Part shown: one piece after another, positions 42,237 through 52,550 of the stretch
How positions within the stretch are numbered: the stretch's first letter is position 1
Layout: the number at the start of each line of letters is the position of its first letter
Translations under genes and position numbers: made by a program
The notes under the pieces: model-generated
The model's database searches: none
What the model saw: the letters and a program-made list of their open reading frames with translations, nothing else
What the model was told of the DNA's origin: nothing
IMG/VR virus record: IMGVR_UViG_3300017971_000341
Location: 1-54,045 of that record
Source: a virus
Length of the DNA: 54,045 nt
Direction: 5' to 3' (one strand)

Positions 42237-42886
42237 GCTACCCCCTCTCTCTGCGAGGCCTCGCGCCCTCGGCGGATCGTCTCGGCCTCCTCCCCGGTCA
42301 GCACGTACAGGATCCACCCGGGTCCGCCCAGGTCCGCGCGACTGACGCAGGCGCCGTCGATCGCGGCGCCGCAGAGGGTGGTGCGGCGGAGATCGGCGCC
42401 ACTGAGATCGGCGCGGCGGAGGTCGGCGTCCTGGAGGACAGCACCACTGAGGCCGGCGCCCCGGAGGCCGGCGCCCCAGAGGTCGGCGCCGCAGAGGTTG
42501 GCGTCGCGGAGGTCGGCGCCACTGAGATCGGCGTCCTGGAGGTCAGTGCTGCAGAGGACAGCGCGGCGGAGGACGGCGCCCCGGAGGTCGGTGTGGCAGA
42601 GGTCGGCGCCTTGGAGGTCGGCGTTGGTGAGGACAGCGCCGTCAATCGCGGCGCCGCTAAGGGCAGCGCCGCGGAGGTCAGCGCCCTGGAGGTCGGCGTC
42701 GGCGAGGTTGGCGTCCTGGAGGACGGCGCCCCGGAGGACGGCGCAGCGGAGGTCGGCGCCCCGGAGGTCGGTGTGGCGGAGGTCGGCGTCTTGGAGATCG
42801 GCGCGCACCCCACCCTCCTGCCCCCCTAGCCAGAGCCCGTGGAGCCGGAGTATCTCGGCGAGTTGATCGCGTGAGATCGCAGTCAT
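42227..42886 (-). CDS. Pentapeptide-repeat protein 1
   Basis: 219 residues from the ATG at 42886. An N-terminal segment with ISRDQLAEILRLHGLWLGGQEG, then about 30 repeats of the A(D/V)LxG type (ADLQDADLRHTDLRGADL and so on), then WILYVLTGEEAETIRRGREASQREGVAWP. Such proteins form a four-sided right-handed beta-helix; some (Qnr, MfpA) mimic DNA and bind gyrase. The role here is unknown. The gene is a near copy of the next upstream one, with the same start and end segments. Confidence 0.88.
   Translation of the reverse strand: MTAISRDQLAEILRLHGLWLGGQEGGVRADLQDADLRHTDLRGADLRCAVLRGAVLQDANLADADLQGADLRGAALSGAAIDGAVLTNADLQGADLCHTDLRGAVLRRAVLCSTDLQDADLSGADLRDANLCGADLWGAGLRGAGLSGAVLQDADLRRADLSGADLRRTTLCGAAIDGACVSRADLGGPGWILYVLTGEEAETIRRGREASQREGVAWP
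42234..42276. repeat. 43-bp direct repeat, copy 1
   Basis: Identical to 42884-42926. It covers the last codons of one pentapeptide gene, the ribosome site and the start of the following gene (the helicase). The two copies mark the duplication unit. Confidence 0.9.
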
Positions 42887-43356
42887 GCTACCCCCTCTCT
42901 CTGCGAGGCCTCGCGCCCTCGGCGGACCAACTCCCATTCCGCGTCTGTCAACGCAGAAAGAATCCACCCCGGTCCGCCCACGTCCGCACGATCGACTATT
43001 ACTCCGTCGATCGTGGCGCCGCAGAGGGTGGTGCGGCGGAGGTCGGCGCAGTGGAGGTTAGCGCCTTGGAGGTCGGCTCCCCGGAGATCGGCGCCGGTGA
43101 GGCAGGCGTGACGGAGGTCGGTGTCGCGGAGGTCGGCGCCGCAGAGGTCGGCGCCGAAGAGGGTGGTGCGGCGGAGGTCGGCGCCTTGGAGGTCGGCGTC
43201 CTGAAGATCGGCGTGACTGAGGTCGGCGTCCTGAAGATCGGCGTGACTGAGGTCGGCGCCGCTGAGGTCGGCGCGCACCCCACCCTCCAACCCTCTCAGC
43301 CAGAGCCCGTGGAGCCGGAGTATCTCGGCGAGTTGCTCGCTGCTGTAGGTAGCCAC
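42883..43356 (-). CDS. Pentapeptide-repeat protein 2
   Basis: 157 residues. N-terminal SSEQLAEILRLHGLWLRGLEG, about 18 A(D/H)L-type repeats (ADLSGADLSHADLQDADLSH and so on), then WILSALTDAEWELVRRGREASQREGVA. It is shorter than its neighbour by about 12 repeats but keeps both ends. GTG start with GAGGAGGAG upstream. It overlaps the downstream copy by four bases. Confidence 0.88.
   Translation of the reverse strand: MATYSSEQLAEILRLHGLWLRGLEGGVRADLSGADLSHADLQDADLSHADLQDADLQGADLRRTTLFGADLCGADLRDTDLRHACLTGADLRGADLQGANLHCADLRRTTLCGATIDGVIVDRADVGGPGWILSALTDAEWELVRRGREASQREGVA
42884..42926. repeat. 43-bp direct repeat, copy 2
   Basis: Identical to 42234-42276. Here it joins pentapeptide gene 2 to pentapeptide gene 1, with the same GAGGGGG site and ATG position. 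It supports a recent tandem duplication or conversion. Confidence 0.9.
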
Positions 43357-44051: not shown

Positions 44052-44624
44052 TTAGGAAAGGTCGATCACTCGACCAATCCGCAGTCCCTCGTCGTGGAGT
44101 ACCATTACTATCTGCACCCGCAAATCCCTACTGAGCTGCTCGAGCAGGGATCGGATCCGATCCTGGTGCCCCGTCGAGAGGAATCGCAGGGGCTCGTCGA
44201 GGATCAGCACGCGAGATCGATCCCGCGCAAGTAGCAGGCAGGACAGACGGAGCGCCAGAGCAGCGATATCCACGACCCCTCCGCCGGCAGCGGACAGAGG
44301 ATCCACCTCCAATCCTTCCCGGACGAATACTAATCTAGCCTCGGTCTGGCCTCTTTTGCGCTCAAATTGGATTCTGAATTCATACGGATCGTCGAAGATT
44401 GCAGCAAGGCTCTCACACACGATTCCAGCAATCTGCGAATGAGCCTTAGTCTGCACCTCCTGTGCTACGGTTTGGGTGATTTGTTGGGCCTCCTCCAATA
44501 CAGCTAAATCTTTCTCGGATTGCTTGATCGATCGGCTCTCGTCTCTGCATGCTTGTTTGGCTGCAGCTAGCTCGACTCTCCTACGACTGACCGCCTTCCT
44601 CAAATCAGACAGAGAGGAAATCAC
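44052..44624 (-). CDS. SbcC/Rad50 C-terminal half (split ATPase)
   Basis: 190 residues. After a coiled-coil start (KQSEKDLAVLEEAQQITQTVAQEV) come SLAAIFDDPYEFRIQFERKRGQTEARLVF, the ABC signature region DPLSAAGGGVVDIAALALRL, Walker B RVLILDEPLRFLS and the H-loop IVMVLHDE. This is the C-terminal ATPase lobe of the Rad50/SbcC family, with no Walker A. It must pair with the N-terminal lobe at 45746-46756. GGAAATC lies near the ATG at 44624, which overlaps the previous gene by 20 bases. Confidence 0.82.
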   Translation of the reverse strand: MISSLSDLRKAVSRRRVELAAAKQACRDESRSIKQSEKDLAVLEEAQQITQTVAQEVQTKAHSQIAGIVCESLAAIFDDPYEFRIQFERKRGQTEARLVFVREGLEVDPLSAAGGGVVDIAALALRLSCLLLARDRSRVLILDEPLRFLSTGHQDRIRSLLEQLSRDLRVQIVMVLHDEGLRIGRVIDLS

Positions 44625-44853
44625 TCCACTCCTCCTCGAATTCCTCTAGTGCTGCCGTGAACGTCTCCTCTGCTTCTTTCTCCTCTGCTTTGATTTTGAC
44701 TAGCAGCTTCTTGGCCTGGTCGATCGAATCGCAATCAAACTCTTCAGAGAGTCTGCGCAAGCACTCGTCTAGAGCACCACTGGCCTGATCCGATTCCCTT
44801 TGTAGTCGACTAACCTTGTCCTTTAGATCTGCAAAACGCTGAATCAGATTCAT
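44605..44853 (-). CDS. Coiled-coil protein between SbcD and SbcC C-half
   Basis: 82 residues, almost all charged helix (LKDKVSRLQRESDQASGALDECLRRL, then AKKLLVKIKAEEKEAEETFTAALEEFEEEW). It looks like one piece of the SbcC coiled-coil arm, or a small partner of the complex. ATG overlaps the SbcD stop (ATGA). Its size would suit the return strand from hook to ATPase lobe, but it has no hook CxxC. Confidence 0.6.
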   Translation of the reverse strand: MNLIQRFADLKDKVSRLQRESDQASGALDECLRRLSEEFDCDSIDQAKKLLVKIKAEEKEAEETFTAALEEFEEEWSDFLSV

Positions 44854-45776
44854 TCCATAGCCTCCAGAATAGCAGCTCTCACTAGAGGGTGTGCGTCAAG
44901 TCTGTCTAAGACCTCTTCCATGGAATCGCGAAAGTCAAACTTCGATTTACTTAGATCCAGAAGGCTGTCTATGAAATCTGACAGCTCCGGATCCTCTTTG
45001 GATTCAGTTAGAATCTCTCGAGTGTCTGCTATGTGATCCTCACTAATATCGAGTAGAAAAGATTGTAGGTGGCCAGACGCATAGAGCACCCCTACCCGTG
45101 GCTTGTGCTCGATCTCGTCTGCTCTACGACGCAGGAGGGATCCACAATTGTAGACTACAGGACCGTCGTCTAGCTCCTCTTCCCACGCCTGGTGATTGTC
45201 ACCGGCCACAACTAGATCGTACCCTTGGAGAGATTTCCGATTGGAGAACAGAGAGGAGCTACGTTGTGCTTTCGGGTGAGAGTGTCCTGGCGTCCATAGA
45301 TATTGGTGAATCACAGCCACCTGGTAGTGTCCTGGGATCTCCTCGCGTAGCGGTTGGATCGGCTCTCCGTAAGGGAATCCCCAAACGTCTAGCCACTGAT
45401 TCACCCGAATCCTCTTGTGTGATCCAAGCATGCGAATCCGATCAGCCAGTACCAAGCTCGTGAAGGCGGACCTCTCGATCAGATCCAATCTGTGTAGAGG
45501 CAGATCGTGTTGGCCTGGGATCGCTAGTATTTCAGGGAGGCGAGTCAAGGCAAAGTTGATCAGCTCTGCTGGAGCATTCCACCGGTCGAACAAATCACCA
45601 GCACAGATCACAGGAGCGTTGTGGACCTCTTGGAGATTAGAGATCTGATCGAGTGGTCGCTGCATGGCAGCACGCCAGTCTGGCTCGTCAGACCGAGCTA
45701 TAGGAGGTTTGAGTGTAAGGTGTATATCAGAGCAGAGAATTGCTACTACGGGATCTCCTGCCCGCACAGCGGACAC
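44850..45776 (-). CDS. SbcD/Mre11-like nuclease (metallophosphoesterase)
   Basis: 308 residues from the GTG at 45776 (GGGAG four bases upstream). Metallophosphoesterase motifs: LCSDIHLT, CAGDLFDRWN, AIPGQHDLPL, VAVIHQYLW and VVAGDNHQAW, in the usual order for Mre11/SbcD/gp47 (a GDNH in place of GH.H, of note). The capping and helix-loop-helix end binds SbcC. It resects DNA ends with the SbcC ATPase. It overlaps the SbcC N-half gene by 31 bases. Confidence 0.85.
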   Translation of the reverse strand: MSAVRAGDPVVAILCSDIHLTLKPPIARSDEPDWRAAMQRPLDQISNLQEVHNAPVICAGDLFDRWNAPAELINFALTRLPEILAIPGQHDLPLHRLDLIERSAFTSLVLADRIRMLGSHKRIRVNQWLDVWGFPYGEPIQPLREEIPGHYQVAVIHQYLWTPGHSHPKAQRSSSLFSNRKSLQGYDLVVAGDNHQAWEEELDDGPVVYNCGSLLRRRADEIEHKPRVGVLYASGHLQSFLLDISEDHIADTREILTESKEDPELSDFIDSLLDLSKSKFDFRDSMEEVLDRLDAHPLVRAAILEAME

Positions 45777-46756
45777 GTCTCTCCCAGTTCCGATTCGAAT
45801 CTGGCCTTTGCTCCCTTCAGATCTTTTGACACTCGACATGATTTCCTCTTGGCTCTCTCGATCTCTTGAATCCTGGCTGCTAGTGATTCTTTCACGCCGT
45901 GGATTTCTAACAGTCTTGAGCACAGGCGGCCTAGTTCTGTGGGCTCTGGTGGGCACTCAATCTTGTCTCTGTATTGGATTGCGCTAGAGATCAGATTCCA
46001 TAAACGCACCCTGGACTTCCTGACGGCCTTGGCCTTCTTGCCAATGCCTCGTACACGACATCCATTCTTGTGTGCGTCATGCAGACTGGCAGAGAGGTCT
46101 CTCTGTTCCTCCGCCTTGGCGAGTAGAGTAGACAGGTCTCCAGCTCTCTTTGCTCTGTCCTTCTGTTCCCACTCGAGGGTCTCCAAATGCTTGAGACCTT
46201 GGGCTGCTCGACCCACAGGAGAAAGCGCCTTGCGTCTGGCTCGGGCCTCCTCTAGTCGAGCCCGACAAGCTTCCTGCATTGTTTTTGTTTTGCGGATCTT
46301 CGACGCCAGATTTGCCAGCGTCCTGTCCACTAGATCCAAATCTACGATCTCATTGATTTGTTTCGACACTTGGCCAGGAGACAAGGAGAACCAATAGGGT
46401 GGATCATGCTGACCCTGGAAGTTGATCTCTCCAAGGCCCAAAACACGATCCACTTCCTCTGGGACCTCGTGACCAAACGCCACGAGGTCCCTCTTTTCTA
46501 CACGGTAGAGATTCTTCTGTGATCCTCTCCTGCGTTCTACGATCCCTTTGTCGGTCTCAACTCGGACTAAGGTCTCCTTCGCCCCGTCCTTGACGAATGC
46601 GTCTCCTCTGGGTTTGTTCAGCGCAACCCAACGCAGCGCCCTGAGAATCGCTGACTTGCCCACGTCAGACGGCCCAACGATCGAGGTCACAGAACCCAGC
46701 TCGATCTCTAGATCCTCGTGGCTTTGGAAATTCCTAAGCGTCAGTTTGCGGATCAC
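45746..46756 (-). CDS. SbcC/Rad50 N-terminal half ending at the zinc hook
   Basis: 336 residues. IRKLTLRNFQSHEDLEIELGSVTSIVGPSDVGKSAILRAL holds the ABC start and Walker A (GPSDVGKS); a Q-loop is in INFQGQHDPPYW; then a long coiled coil (about 150-325); and the last residues are TCPLCGQEIP, the CxxC zinc hook at the very C-terminus. So the protein ends where the normal SbcC arm turns back. The C-lobe is encoded separately, two genes further on. GTG start with GAGGACTG upstream. Confidence 0.88.
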   Translation of the reverse strand: MIRKLTLRNFQSHEDLEIELGSVTSIVGPSDVGKSAILRALRWVALNKPRGDAFVKDGAKETLVRVETDKGIVERRRGSQKNLYRVEKRDLVAFGHEVPEEVDRVLGLGEINFQGQHDPPYWFSLSPGQVSKQINEIVDLDLVDRTLANLASKIRKTKTMQEACRARLEEARARRKALSPVGRAAQGLKHLETLEWEQKDRAKRAGDLSTLLAKAEEQRDLSASLHDAHKNGCRVRGIGKKAKAVRKSRVRLWNLISSAIQYRDKIECPPEPTELGRLCSRLLEIHGVKESLAARIQEIERAKRKSCRVSKDLKGAKARFESELGETCPLCGQEIP

Positions 46757-47818: not shown

Positions 47819-48562
47819 TCACCACAACAATCCCACCTTTCGGTTGGTCCAGATCACCTCTATTGATTTGTTGATCTTCTGCTCATAGCTTGCTCGCGGT
47901 CTTGCTTTGACCAGTGGTCGAAACGGTAGCCAATCAGCTCCTTCGTTCTCGCACACGATCACAAAACCCTTCCTGCTCTTGCACCAATGTGCTAAGTGGT
48001 CGTAGTCAATTTGATTATCGTGGTATCTCCTTCCAGCCTCATTGTTGTATGGAGGATCCACAAACCATGTAGCTTCTTGATTCTTCAGCTCTGAGTAGTC
48101 TTTGCAGAGGATCGTCCATGACGGTACTGGTGTGTGGAGTGTCTTGATTGACTGTTTGATACGGCTGGAGCAGACAGACCCAAACTCCGTTACAATCTTA
48201 TGCCCCACTGTGTTATCACCATCTATCCCTCCAATTCCTTGTGCTCCCCAGCAACGCAAAAAGTAGAATAGACCGGTGCCGAATCTTGCCAGGTCTCTTA
48301 TGTCTGTCCCTTTATCCAATCTATCCGGCAGTAGATCTAACAACTCAGCCGTGGAGTGCTTCTGCAGGAATTTCCAGATCTTGTATGTGGGTTTGTTCAA
48401 ATCATTCAGAATCACGCGCCTTCCGCGTGACCAGTACAGGCTATATGCACCAGATCCAGCGAACGGTTCAACGATCGTCTTGTGCCTTGGCCTGGAATAT
48501 AGGTGGATTACTTTGCTTTTTGATCCATAGTAGGAGAACAGAGATCTGTGACGTCTAGTCAC
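47819..48562 (-). CDS. DNA adenine methyltransferase, D12 class (copy A)
   Basis: 247 residues. SLFSYYGSKSK at the start, TIVEPFAGSGAYSLYWS (motif I, about 24-40), ILNDLNKPTYKIW, and TWFVDPPYNN (DPPY motif IV). D12-class enzymes usually methylate adenine in GATC. I chose the GTG at 48562, with GGAGGAGG four to five bases upstream; it overlaps the flap exonuclease stop. This is the first of three such genes in 4 kb and is the most divergent. Confidence 0.9.
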   Translation of the reverse strand: MTRRHRSLFSYYGSKSKVIHLYSRPRHKTIVEPFAGSGAYSLYWSRGRRVILNDLNKPTYKIWKFLQKHSTAELLDLLPDRLDKGTDIRDLARFGTGLFYFLRCWGAQGIGGIDGDNTVGHKIVTEFGSVCSSRIKQSIKTLHTPVPSWTILCKDYSELKNQEATWFVDPPYNNEAGRRYHDNQIDYDHLAHWCKSRKGFVIVCENEGADWLPFRPLVKARPRASYEQKINKSIEVIWTNRKVGLLW

Positions 48563-48563
48563 T

Positions 48564-49454
48564 CTACCTCCTCCTGAATCTGATTCTCTTGTGGCCATGA
48601 AAGAATCTGATCCATGCGTTCCTCTTAGGTCCCTGCAAGTAGGACACGATCCCGTACCTCTTGCACAGATCAAAGAATTCACCTGGGTTGTATCTTGGCT
48701 CTCGTAGATCGACTGTCTTAGTCCTCTCGTGTGGGAGAATCACTAGTGGTTTGTTTCTGGCTACGATCCTCTGTCCGTTCTCTGAAGTGATTGCTTGATA
48801 TGTCTTGTAGCGACTGGGCAGACAACCGGTGAGGTACTTGACAGCTGTCTGCTCCCCTACTCCCTGGATCCCGGGAACTCCGTCACTGGAGCACCCTGCT
48901 ATAGATTTGACCTCTCCCCACCTGTGTGGCGAGATTCCACGAGCCGCCAGGAAGGACGCGGGATTGTGACAGGTCCCTCTGCTGGGGTCATACCAATGCA
49001 CCGAGTCTCGAATGCATTGGTACAGATCCCCGTCAGACGTGACCATGATCGCTTGCGTTTGTGTCCCCTCGAATTGAGAAGCAGCCATTGCAATCAGATC
49101 GTCAGACTCAAGCCCTACCTGCCTGTAGATCTTGAATCCAGACTCAGGAAGGATCTTGGTCTGCAACAATCTGACCTGATCCCACATGATTGAGATCTGT
49201 TCCCGCTCCTCCTCTGTCCTGTTGTCTACTCGTTTTTGTTTGTACTCTGGGAAAGATTGCTTTCGGTGGCTCTTCTTGGAATCAGCGAAGAGAGCTACTC
49301 GATTGCTCAATACCTTGGGATCGGTGCAGATCGACCTGAGTTGCTCCAGGAACCCGAATATGACTCCTGTCGGATAGTCCTCGTGCTCCAATCCGTGGAG
49401 AGCACACCGGGCTCTGTGGGCTAGATAGGAGAGATCAATTAGTACCCAGATCAC
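48564..49454 (-). CDS. 5'-3' exonuclease/flap endonuclease
   Basis: 296 residues from the GTG at 49454. WVLIDLSYLAHRA (first metal Asp), ALFADSKKSHRKQSFPEYKQKR, GLESDDLIAMAASQ (metal Asp-Asp), VTSDGDLYQCI and GCSSDGVPGIQGVGEQTAVKYL (helix-hairpin-helix) are the full FEN/PolI-5' nuclease set. It removes RNA primers and flaps. It overlaps the preceding methyltransferase by four bases (GTGA). Confidence 0.95.
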   Translation of the reverse strand: MIWVLIDLSYLAHRARCALHGLEHEDYPTGVIFGFLEQLRSICTDPKVLSNRVALFADSKKSHRKQSFPEYKQKRVDNRTEEEREQISIMWDQVRLLQTKILPESGFKIYRQVGLESDDLIAMAASQFEGTQTQAIMVTSDGDLYQCIRDSVHWYDPSRGTCHNPASFLAARGISPHRWGEVKSIAGCSSDGVPGIQGVGEQTAVKYLTGCLPSRYKTYQAITSENGQRIVARNKPLVILPHERTKTVDLREPRYNPGEFFDLCKRYGIVSYLQGPKRNAWIRFFHGHKRIRFRRR

Positions 49455-50593
49455 AATCCGAATCCTACCGTGGATTGCTTGGTGTGAGGGGAGAGCCAAA
49501 GCACTTCCTTGTGTCGATTCTTTGTATTTGCTGTCTGCTTGCCCTTATGTGTCCCGTAGGCTCTATTCACTGAATAGCGATAGACCACCCAATTGTCCGG
49601 CATTTTATGCTCTCCTTGATAGCCGGCCAAGACAATCCGCAGTCTGGATTCCTCCCCATGCTCTACTGCCCAATCCCTCACGAGCCTAGACACATTACCT
49701 CCGTCGTGGGTGTAGAGATCCTTCTCACGAATCTCATCGTCATAAGGAGGATCCAGAAAGATTCCTACCGATCCCTCTCTTGGGTATGTCAAAGCCCCCA
49801 TAGTTAGGACTCTTGTCCAATCCCCACAAATCACCCTCACGTCCTCCAGACGCTCCGACAATTGGATCATGTAGGCTAGGATCCAATTGTGCCGGCCCCT
49901 AGATTGCTGTCTGTTGATCCCTTGGCCTGAATTCCCTAGGTGGGGTCGCTGTCTGTTGATTCCTTGGCCTGAATCCCCTAGGTGGGGTCGCTGTCTGTTG
50001 ATTCCTTGGCCTGAATCCCCTAGGTGGGGTCGCTGTCTGTTGATTCCTTGGCCTGAATCCCCTAGGTGGGGTCGCTTTCTGCTGATTCCTTGGCCTGAAT
50101 CCCCTAGGTGGGGTCGCTGTCTGTTGATTCCTCGACCAGATTCTTTTACCAATCTCTTCTTTTCACGATCCAATACCCAGGGACCTTGGCCACTACACCA
50201 CCCAGCACCAATCCATGAGCAGATTCCCCACACCCACCATCCTGCTACCTTGGCACTGTAGTAATTGGGATCTGCTTCCAGTCTCTCCCTCCTCCTCTTC
50301 TGGGTTCTGACTAGCCACGAATGTTTAGCCACTAGATCGCATTCGTTCACGGGGTCAGACGCGAAATCAGCCACTCTCTCTGGATCATGTTTCACAGCTC
50401 GCCAGAAATTGGCGATAAAATAATCAAGATCGTTAACGGTCTCTGTCCTATGATTGTGGCTCTTGGGCCTCTCGAGCAGCACAGCCAAACTACCCGCAAA
50501 TGGTTCCACGTAGTGATGCACATCTCCCAGAGCAGACCACACTAGATCTGCTGCCCTCCTCTTTCCCCCAAACCAGGGAAATGGCGCCTTCAT
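49451..50593 (-). CDS. DNA adenine methyltransferase, D12 class (copy B, with tandem-repeat insert)
   Basis: 380 residues from the ATG at 50593. PFPWFGGKRRAADLVW, HYVEPFAGSLAVLLERP (motif I), TVNDLDYFIANFWRA, IFLDPPYDDEI (motif IV). Residues about 150-235 hold an insert with five to six 14-residue units (INRQRPHLGDSGQG) between WIGAGWCSGQGPW and the second half. It should methylate adenine, probably in GATC. It overlaps the copy C stop (ATGA) and ends in GFGL just as copy C does. Confidence 0.92.
   Translation of the reverse strand: MKAPFPWFGGKRRAADLVWSALGDVHHYVEPFAGSLAVLLERPKSHNHRTETVNDLDYFIANFWRAVKHDPERVADFASDPVNECDLVAKHSWLVRTQKRRRERLEADPNYYSAKVAGWWVWGICSWIGAGWCSGQGPWVLDREKKRLVKESGRGINRQRPHLGDSGQGISRKRPHLGDSGQGINRQRPHLGDSGQGINRQRPHLGDSGQGINRQRPHLGNSGQGINRQQSRGRHNWILAYMIQLSERLEDVRVICGDWTRVLTMGALTYPREGSVGIFLDPPYDDEIREKDLYTHDGGNVSRLVRDWAVEHGEESRLRIVLAGYQGEHKMPDNWVVYRYSVNRAYGTHKGKQTANTKNRHKEVLWLSPHTKQSTVGFGL
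49906..50137 (-). repeat. 42-bp in-frame tandem repeat in methyltransferase copy B
   Basis: Five full units of 42 bp (starting at 49906, 49948, 49990, 50032 and 50074) and a partial sixth, nearly identical, beginning gctgtctgttgattccttgg on the + strand. It keeps the frame and encodes the PHLGDSGQGINRQR units. It has no spacers, so it is not a CRISPR array. Confidence 0.95.
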
Positions 50594-51453
50594 AATCCGA
50601 ATCCCTTCATCGCCTTCCCTTCCCCTCTTTTGATCCACAAACTCTCTACTCTTGATTGGTTCTTGTTCAAGGATCCAATCCCTTTCAATCCTGTCTTTCT
50701 GGTCCTGGGTGCAGCAAAACAGACCGTTTTCCAGTCATGTCTGGCCCACTCTGGCGAATTGTCTAGCGGTTTGTGGATCTCATGCCAATAGCCCGACAAA
50801 GCCACTGATCCCTGTAGACCCATGATTGTGTCTACTAATTCCACGTGGTCCTCTAGATTCAGCTCCTCGTGATAAACCCCATCCCGACGCAAATCTGGCA
50901 CGTATGGAGGATCCAAGTAGAACAGGGTCTCTTTTGAGTCGTAGAAATCCAGGACCTTTCGCCAATCATTACACTCGATTTGAACTCTGCGCAGCCTCCT
51001 GTGAATTTGGGGGAGGCCTTCCACCGCACTGATCCAGGTTTGAGTAGCTAAACTAGAAGTGGGACTGAACCCCCACCCAGATGTCCTGTTCAACCCTCCT
51101 GTTCCTCCAAAGGATTGACGATTTAACACATACCACTTGACGGCACGGGCGACTTGGTCCTTCTCGCCTCTCCATGTATTCTTACAGTCCATCCACAGCT
51201 GGCGAGAATGAGGGAGCGCACTAACCCTCCGAGCAAATTTCTTGAACTTCTTTGGATCCGATAAGACACAGAACAAATCATACAACGCGTGATCTAGATC
51301 ATTGTAGACCTCTAGATCTACTGGGCTCCGAGCAAACAGGAGACTAGCACCACCTCCAAAGACTTCCACGTAACGAGAGCATAGGGGCATTAAGGGAATG
51401 ATCTTCTTGGCGATCGCCCCCTTCCCACCGAACCATAGCAGAGGTCCTCTCAT
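50590..51453 (-). CDS. DNA adenine methyltransferase, D12 class (copy C)
   Basis: 287 residues from the ATG at 51453. GPLLWFGGKGAIAKKII, YVEVFGGGASLLFA (motif I variant VFGGGA), VYNDLDHALYDLFCV, TLFYLDPPYVPD (motif IV), and NRQSFGGTGG typical of phage D12 enzymes. It ends in KAMKGFGL, with the same last residues and the same overlapping start context as copy B. It overlaps the RecA-like stop (ATGA). Confidence 0.92.
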   Translation of the reverse strand: MRGPLLWFGGKGAIAKKIIPLMPLCSRYVEVFGGGASLLFARSPVDLEVYNDLDHALYDLFCVLSDPKKFKKFARRVSALPHSRQLWMDCKNTWRGEKDQVARAVKWYVLNRQSFGGTGGLNRTSGWGFSPTSSLATQTWISAVEGLPQIHRRLRRVQIECNDWRKVLDFYDSKETLFYLDPPYVPDLRRDGVYHEELNLEDHVELVDTIMGLQGSVALSGYWHEIHKPLDNSPEWARHDWKTVCFAAPRTRKTGLKGIGSLNKNQSRVESLWIKRGEGKAMKGFGL

Positions 51454-52550
51454 TGGTACCGCTTCTTTCGATTCAGCTCTCCAGCTTCCTCTATCTCCCT
51501 CCAGCAATCACCAACTACAGATTGCAACTGTCTAACCAGTCCTTCCCGTTCGATTGTCTCTATCAAACTCTCCCGAGTCCCACTGATCCCTAGACCCTCA
51601 GCCTTGATTGTTTTCTTGGTCTTCTTCCATTGACCTTCAGCTGTCAGATAATCAATGCACGAGCCGATATCGTCTATCCCATACGAGGGATAAATCAGAG
51701 TCTCAACCTCATGGAGTTTGCCTGTTGTCCTGTTCTTTTTTATCTGCAATTTGATCTTGGTTCCAATCTTCCTGGCCTTGCCTCGAATCGTCTTCTTGAC
51801 GACTCCGGAGACTGAAGACCAAATCTCTACTGTGCTGTAGAACCGAAGAGCCTTTCCTCCTGATCTCGTCTTTCTCTCGAATCCAAATCCGAGGTTGTCT
51901 CGAGTCTGGGAGACCACAATTAGAATACTCCCAGTCTTGCTTAGCCCACTCAGAATCCTGCGAATCCCTGCACTGTTAGCCTTGGCCTTCGCCGTCCCAT
52001 AGGACCCCGTGGTTTCCCTCCCCTGCTTGTGTGCTGCTTTCTGCTGCTGGAATTTGGTGCTGTCTTCCTCGGAGTAGAGGGCGTCCATGGAATCCAAAAC
52101 ATAGACGAATGGAGAGCCGTCCTGTACTGCGTCGTCTACGTGGTAGTAGAAATCCTCTACAGTCCTAGAGTAGATTGGGTTGTTGTCCTCGTCTCTTGCC
52201 GGAGGCTCAACCCTGACCGCTGTCGTCTTTCCAAACAGACCAGCAACATCTAGCAGCATGCCGTCTTCTGCATTGTCGTAGACCAGACGGTACTTGTGGA
52301 ATCTCCGACTTCTGCACGCTTCTGCAAAGCATGACATTGAGAGGAATGTTTTTCCGCTGGTGCTGTCCCCTACTAGTAGGTAGTACTTCCCGCACAGGAA
52401 CCCTCCATAAGGATTACCAGAGCACGCTAGATTTAGCAGGGTGCTGCCGGTCGACAGCAGATCACTCCTTTTGATCCTCTTGCTTCTCCTTTTCTCTCTT
52501 CTCGATTTGGCTACTGCCTGAGCAGCTCGTTTAATTCTTTTGATCGTCAC
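51450..52550 (-). CDS. RecA-like recombinase
   Basis: 366 residues if the GTG at 52550 is used. STGSTLLNLACSGNPYGGFLCGKYYLLVGDSTSGKTFLSM (Walker A), PFVYVLDSMDALYSEED (Walker B), GIRRILSGLSKTGSILIVVSQTRDN, then the L2-like GFERKTRSGGKALRFYSTVEIW. It is a RecA/UvsX-type strand exchange protein. The frame is open to 52652, and the intergenic GGAGGAGGGG lies 12 bases before a TTG there, so a longer start is possible. It follows the ssDNA-binding protein gene, its natural partner. Confidence 0.9.
   Translation of the reverse strand: MTIKRIKRAAQAVAKSRREKRRSKRIKRSDLLSTGSTLLNLACSGNPYGGFLCGKYYLLVGDSTSGKTFLSMSCFAEACRSRRFHKYRLVYDNAEDGMLLDVAGLFGKTTAVRVEPPARDEDNNPIYSRTVEDFYYHVDDAVQDGSPFVYVLDSMDALYSEEDSTKFQQQKAAHKQGRETTGSYGTAKAKANSAGIRRILSGLSKTGSILIVVSQTRDNLGFGFERKTRSGGKALRFYSTVEIWSSVSGVVKKTIRGKARKIGTKIKLQIKKNRTTGKLHEVETLIYPSYGIDDIGSCIDYLTAEGQWKKTKKTIKAEGLGISGTRESLIETIEREGLVRQLQSVVGDCWREIEEAGELNRKKRYQ

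Follow-up and report, generated by a model that had tools for sequence, protein, structure and literature searches.

A Rad50 divided at its zinc hook: probable three-chain Mre11-Rad50 complexes in viruses and bacteria

Introduction

The closest described systems to the viral locus considered here are the SbcCD/Mre11-Rad50 complexes, exemplified by E. coli SbcC and Pyrococcus furiosus Rad50, with which it has in common both ATPase lobes, a CPxC hook, an SbcD/Mre11 nuclease and organization as an operon. It differs from them in a Rad50 made of three chains with a chain end at the hook, in a GGGVxD signature, and in an N-terminal arm that appears modular; the phage form of its nuclease also carries Gln and Asp at two positions of metal site 2. 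The gp46/gp47 pair of bacteriophage T4 is likewise a phage SbcCD, serving recombination-dependent replication, but gp46 is a single 560-aa chain with an internal CxxC motif at residue 287. Two small genes, 46.1 and 46.2, lie between the SbcC and SbcD genes of T4 (L186:3982-4432).

Separate lobes have a structural precedent in the P. furiosus Rad50 heads solved as distinct N and C chains (1f2t A/B, 1ii8 A/B and 3qkr A/B). The engineered P. furiosus catalytic domain (1f2t/1f2u) resembles the present proteins in forming one head from two chains, but it is a laboratory construct without hook, CC protein (the small coiled-coil protein described below) or full arm. Yoshida et al. 2011 (PMC3175470) describe Mre11/Rad50 fusion proteins in which SbcD is joined to Rad50 parts. 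These differ from the window, where the genes are separate, in having SbcD and SbcC in one chain, and the passages on them mention neither a separate C-lobe gene nor a CC gene. For two of the fusions one P-loop segment is reported as not seen, which might be accounted for by a C-lobe encoded in a gene of its own. The lobe families themselves are already represented by PHROG 16465 ("exonuclease", the N-lobe profile) and PHROG 15167 ("ATPase", the C-lobe profile), whose annotations stand apart and do not mark them as two parts of the same protein. A literature search of openly accessible journal papers returned no published description of a split Rad50/SbcC, only of one-chain Rad50.

Organization of the locus

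The window, meaning the entire stretch of DNA analysed, is the whole of virus record IMGVR_UViG_3300017971_000341 (54,045 bp). Its features relevant to Rad50 are the following.

46756..45746, minus strand: N-lobe and ascending arm of Rad50/SbcC (336 aa, GTG start, ending in ETCPLCGQEIP and the stop)
46652..46675, minus strand: Walker A of the N-lobe, GPSDVGKS by sequence (G28, G33 and K34 invariant in 60 phage N-lobes)
45764..45775, minus strand: codons of the CPLC zinc-hook motif, 5 codons before the N-lobe stop
44850..45839, minus strand: SbcD/Mre11-type nuclease (329 aa from the ATG at 45839), beginning within the 3' end of the N-lobe gene
44853..44605, minus strand: CC, an 82-aa coiled-coil protein with a helix-turn-helix pattern, its start lying on the SbcD stop (ATGA)
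44624..44052, minus strand: C-lobe and basal coil of Rad50/SbcC (190 aa, GTG start preceded by GAGGAGG)
44268..44285, minus strand: divergent ABC signature GGGVVD of the C-lobe, in place of an LSGGE-type motif
44190..44210, minus strand: Walker B of the C-lobe, VLILDEP
44094..44096, minus strand: H-loop histidine codon of the C-lobe (VLHDE)

A ribosome-binding-like sequence stands ahead of every start in this four-gene set. The mechanical open reading frame of SbcD runs from 45956, and its most likely start is either the ATG at 45839 (AGAGGA before it) or a GTG at 45776 (GGGAGA before it), the latter overlapping the codon of the first hook cysteine in the N-lobe gene. A preliminary description of this DNA had placed the division of SbcC at the hook, the N-lobe ending at CPLCGQEIP and the C-lobe forming a separate gene, with SbcD and the 82-residue coiled-coil gene between them. 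Those coordinates are exact and the order N-SbcD-CC-C holds. Its further proposals, of a complex necessarily put together from several chains and of coupled synthesis suggested by the overlapping starts, agree with the distribution of the Rad50 lobes and CC over three genes and with overlaps of up to 94 nt (N-lobe/SbcD), 4 nt (SbcD/CC, ATGA) and 20 nt (CC/C-lobe). No second C-lobe was found in the window, which is the complete virus record.

Adjoining the operon, two pentapeptide-repeat genes (ADLxx repeats) lie side by side at 42364-43274. Three D12-class adenine methyltransferase genes are clustered at 47819-51507, and a tandem repeat (42-bp unit, 5.4 copies, 96% match) occupies 49906-50132 within a Dam-type methyltransferase gene.

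Domain identity and catalytic residues

Profile and structure searches relate the N-lobe to AAA_23 (9e-12), to the PHROG exonuclease family (2e-29) and to the P. furiosus Rad50 N chain 3qkr_A (5e-12), and the top Foldseek matches of its AlphaFold model are P. furiosus Mre11-Rad50, with a VIA-align Z of 13.2 to 9a9j_A. The C-lobe matches Rad50 profile positions 684-857 (7.5e-10) and the P. furiosus Rad50 C chain 3qkr_B (2.7e-9), whereas SbcD matches the calcineurin-like phosphoesterases (1.8e-8) and P. furiosus Mre11 (2e-4). With a Walker A motif and a Rad50-type fold in one lobe, and Walker B and an H-loop in the other, the identification of the N- and C-lobes as two halves of Rad50, and of SbcD as an Mre11-type phosphoesterase, is well supported. 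The Walker A, Walker B, H-loop and SbcD catalytic residues are strongly conserved among relatives, and every metal-ligand position of SbcD is occupied. A predicted zinc hook is present as a CPxC motif at the end of the N chain, and the two lobes and two coil strands that a single polypeptide carries in SbcCD are divided among three genes.

Residues depart from the canonical pattern in two respects. The LSGGE-type ABC signature is replaced by GGGVxD, in which the usual serine and glutamate are not kept; among phage C-lobes the third glycine is found in 74/75 and the aspartate in 75/75. In the phage SbcDs, two changes are linked (P. furiosus Mre11 numbering), N84 being replaced by Gln in 64/66 and H206 by Asp in 66/66, at the second metal site. 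Nearly all bacterial members keep Asn and His at these positions.

Distribution in viruses

A protein search returned 15 viral relatives, and a search with the C-lobe alignment returned 348 viral contigs, of which 80 were kept. The order N-SbcD-CC-C, whose presence in other phages the preliminary description had proposed as a check, occurs in 62 of the 81 phage loci tallied, and contig ends cut nearly all of the others. Every one of 63 distinct phage N-lobes has a CxxC motif near its C-terminus (60 CPxC, and one each of CVLC, CATC and CETC), and no more than 16 residues follow the motif in 58 of the 60 with CPxC. The arrangement extends to cultured phages. Microcystis phage Mvi-JY20 carries the four genes in the order N-SbcD-CC-C, each annotated as hypothetical, with an N-lobe ending near CSQC, and in Bacillus phage vB_BboS-125 the N, CC and C genes are annotated as exonuclease, hypothetical and ATPase, respectively.

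In a single contig, a break within one gene, whether from sequencing or assembly error or from decay of an SbcC pseudogene, could look like this arrangement. The explanation is vanishingly improbable here, as SbcD sits between the pieces and as intact motifs and gene arrangement are kept in dozens of independent contigs, in cultured phages and in a complete bacterial chromosome. The recurrence in dozens of diverged contigs means that the split is not due to chance, and this independent conservation rules out the frameshift or assembly artefact that the preliminary description had asked to be checked.

Distribution in bacteria and relation to one-chain SbcC

Beyond what the preliminary description considered, the split is no phage oddity. 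The C-lobe was found on 70 bacterial genome contigs, mostly of Clostridia-type Firmicutes and including a complete Carboxydocella chromosome. The gene order in 54 of these 70 loci is SbcD-N-CC-C, and a CxxC motif lies at the N-lobe end in all 62 non-fused genomic N-lobes. Among 149 genomes of the Carboxydocella phylum, scored for one-chain SbcC at a threshold of E up to 1e-20, 57 have one-chain SbcC, 27 have the split C-lobe and 1 has both, where 10.3 would be expected (Fisher p 1.4e-5, a statistic that ignores kinship); 66 of the 149 have neither form at the thresholds used. A strong one-chain SbcC match was obtained in only 2 of 18 split-bearing genomes (none in 16), whereas 12 of 14 controls gave some match. 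The split system thus appears, from these gene inventories, to take the place of ordinary SbcC in many bacteria, and would account for Clostridia-type genomes that seemingly have no SbcC.

Fusions, permutations and phylogeny

Variant loci occur on plasmids of Bacillus, Geobacillus, Paenibacillus, Aneurinibacillus, Alkaliphilus and Variovorax. Four Firmicutes plasmid loci (L022, L023, L026 and L027) encode SbcD-N-lobe fusions with separate CC and C genes. A Variovorax plasmid gene (L025:4749-6719) encodes the C-lobe followed by the N-lobe, with CPLC near the C-terminus and a His-rich tail, and is flanked by a 97-aa CC-like gene upstream and SbcD downstream; judged by its domain order, the predicted product is a circularly permuted Rad50 with its ends at the hook. 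No viral relatives of this C-N protein were found in a search. In two further loci (L145:4630-6684 and L148:2626-4707), SbcD, N and C are joined in one chain of ~690 aa without arm or hook. A head-domain tree separates the split forms from the one-chain SbcCs included and places the armless L145 and L148 proteins inside the split clade; support for the whole split clade, permuted form included, is weak (0.547). A mixed alignment contained no conserved stretch good enough for a genome scan.

These fusions bear on whether the N- and C-lobes belong together at all. In the cultured Microbacterium phage Magritte, whose N-lobe has no hook, and in Tunturi_5, the two lobes are encoded far apart in the genome, as might be expected if they were parts of different ATPases working apart and CC an unrelated small protein. 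Such an interpretation is very unlikely, because both lobes are required for an ABC half-site, the natural C-N and SbcD-N-C fusions unite the same pieces, and the pieces, CC included, lie in one operon at almost all loci.

The CC protein

A point absent from the preliminary description is that CC is a conserved component, present across split loci and staying in the operon in almost all. Phage CC and Firmicutes CC are homologous by profile comparison (probability 96.6, E 6.8e-10). Comparison with the E. coli SbcC profile aligns CC to residues 530-563, just past the hook, at P 0.063, and comparison with 15 one-chain SbcCs gives best columns of 803-866 for phage CC and 675-740 for Firmicutes CC. 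The best matches of both groups fall on the descending side of one-chain SbcC, but at different places, and the link of CC to the descending coil is weak. Assignment of CC as the immediate post-hook coil was set aside, given the P of only 0.063 and the disagreement between the two descending-side placements. A broader role as a stand-in for the descending coil may be inferred.

Arm length and modules

The preliminary description had expected that the split would make the arm much shorter, an expectation that is not upheld. In the N-lobe of the window the hook cysteine is residue 328, before that of E. coli SbcC (505) but beyond that of one-chain T4 gp46 (287), and the distance from start to hook in split relatives clusters near 285, 329, 368, 411, 457 and 504, while a single case lies at 600. 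Self-similarity of the N arm peaks at a lag of 47 residues in Firmicutes (z 55 pooled, 5-8 in single sequences) and of 44 in phages (z 13). Pooling counts related sequences as though each were independent, so more trust belongs to the values from single sequences. Autocorrelation of the E. coli SbcC arm gave no peak comparable to that at lag 44/47. The hook thus shifts by ~44-47 residues at a time, and the number of N modules would determine how long the arm is. The N arm varies in length by more than 200 residues with no change in the size of CC or of the C coil, which argues against simple one-to-one pairing.

AlphaFold monomer models of two N-lobes differ in the continuity of the arm. That of the window protein (pLDDT 88) has arm helices at 140-177, 179-267 and 272-324, and that of the Orenia protein (pLDDT 75) has arm helices beginning at 157, 198, 252, 299, 349, 396 and 441. 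The near-continuous long helices of the former, together with a summed length of CC (82 residues) and C coil (~60) close to the 185-residue N arm of the window, would suit an ordinary long coiled coil in which CC and the C coil constitute the full descending partner, giving a particle shaped like one-chain Rad50. This geometry is an appreciable possibility, if somewhat doubtful, since the N arms of relatives lengthen by ~47-residue modules with CC and C coil unchanged and the Orenia arm is broken into helices of about 40-60 residues. The arm geometry of the split complex is in either case inferred. Also plausible, though tentative, is a distinct Rad50 architecture with a two-chain head, an arm that is a variable string of ~44-47-residue single-helix N modules, and an exchangeable CC. 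Release of a chain, and not opening of the hook, could then be what opens the arm or ring, and this form would replace one-chain SbcC across a large bacterial group and the viruses of that group.

Proposed mechanism and biological role

Taken together, the locus quite probably encodes a naturally split Mre11-Rad50 (SbcCD) complex, its Rad50 composed of three chains and dimerizing through zinc-bound N-chain ends, that functions in end-processing. Points against this assignment include the weak link of CC to the descending coil, the varying N-arm length beside a constant CC and C coil, the signature lacking the usual LSGGE serine and glutamate, and the hookless N-lobe of Magritte. In the proposed mechanism, the N- and C-lobes would join non-covalently to form the ABC head, in the manner of the P. 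furiosus chains produced separately, and ATP would cause two heads to engage, with SbcD docked at the base of the coil. CC would pack on the N arm, lengthwise or close to its tip, replacing the descending coil that one-chain Rad50 provides itself, and one zinc ion would link two N-chain C-termini, either to close the ring or to hold two DNA ends together. Trimming or resection of DNA ends by the enzyme would feed the recombination and replication set of the phage itself. A break that always falls at the hook would be explained by the hook apex being the sole place where the chain can be interrupted while sparing head and rod.

Other genes of the window specify a UvsX-like recombinase, an SSB-like protein, a 5'-3' exonuclease, a RusA-like PDDEXK protein (resolvase) and a helicase, which makes recombination-dependent replication or repair the most likely role. 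In a PADLOC comparison confined to the locus, models for mad3, LmuB and GajA match both lobes weakly, as a defence or anti-defence ATPase-nuclease of the Lamassu, Gabija or MADS kind would. That the proteins belong to such a system and not to recombination is nonetheless unlikely: the common ABC head explains the weak matches, the partner is an Mre11-type nuclease with UvsX-like recombinase, SSB-like protein, exonuclease and resolvase as neighbours, and the bacterial system appears to stand in for SbcC.

Implications

The split Rad50 looks like a widespread, previously unrecognised build of the Mre11-Rad50 machine, and phage genes labelled "exonuclease", "ATPase" and "hypothetical" would be pieces of one enzyme. 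It has long been asked whether the arms of Rad50 and SMC proteins must be continuous, and how their rings open. A natural Rad50 whose chain ends lie at the hook, made of small, separately expressible proteins, would allow subunits to be omitted or swapped singly and would thereby offer a direct test.
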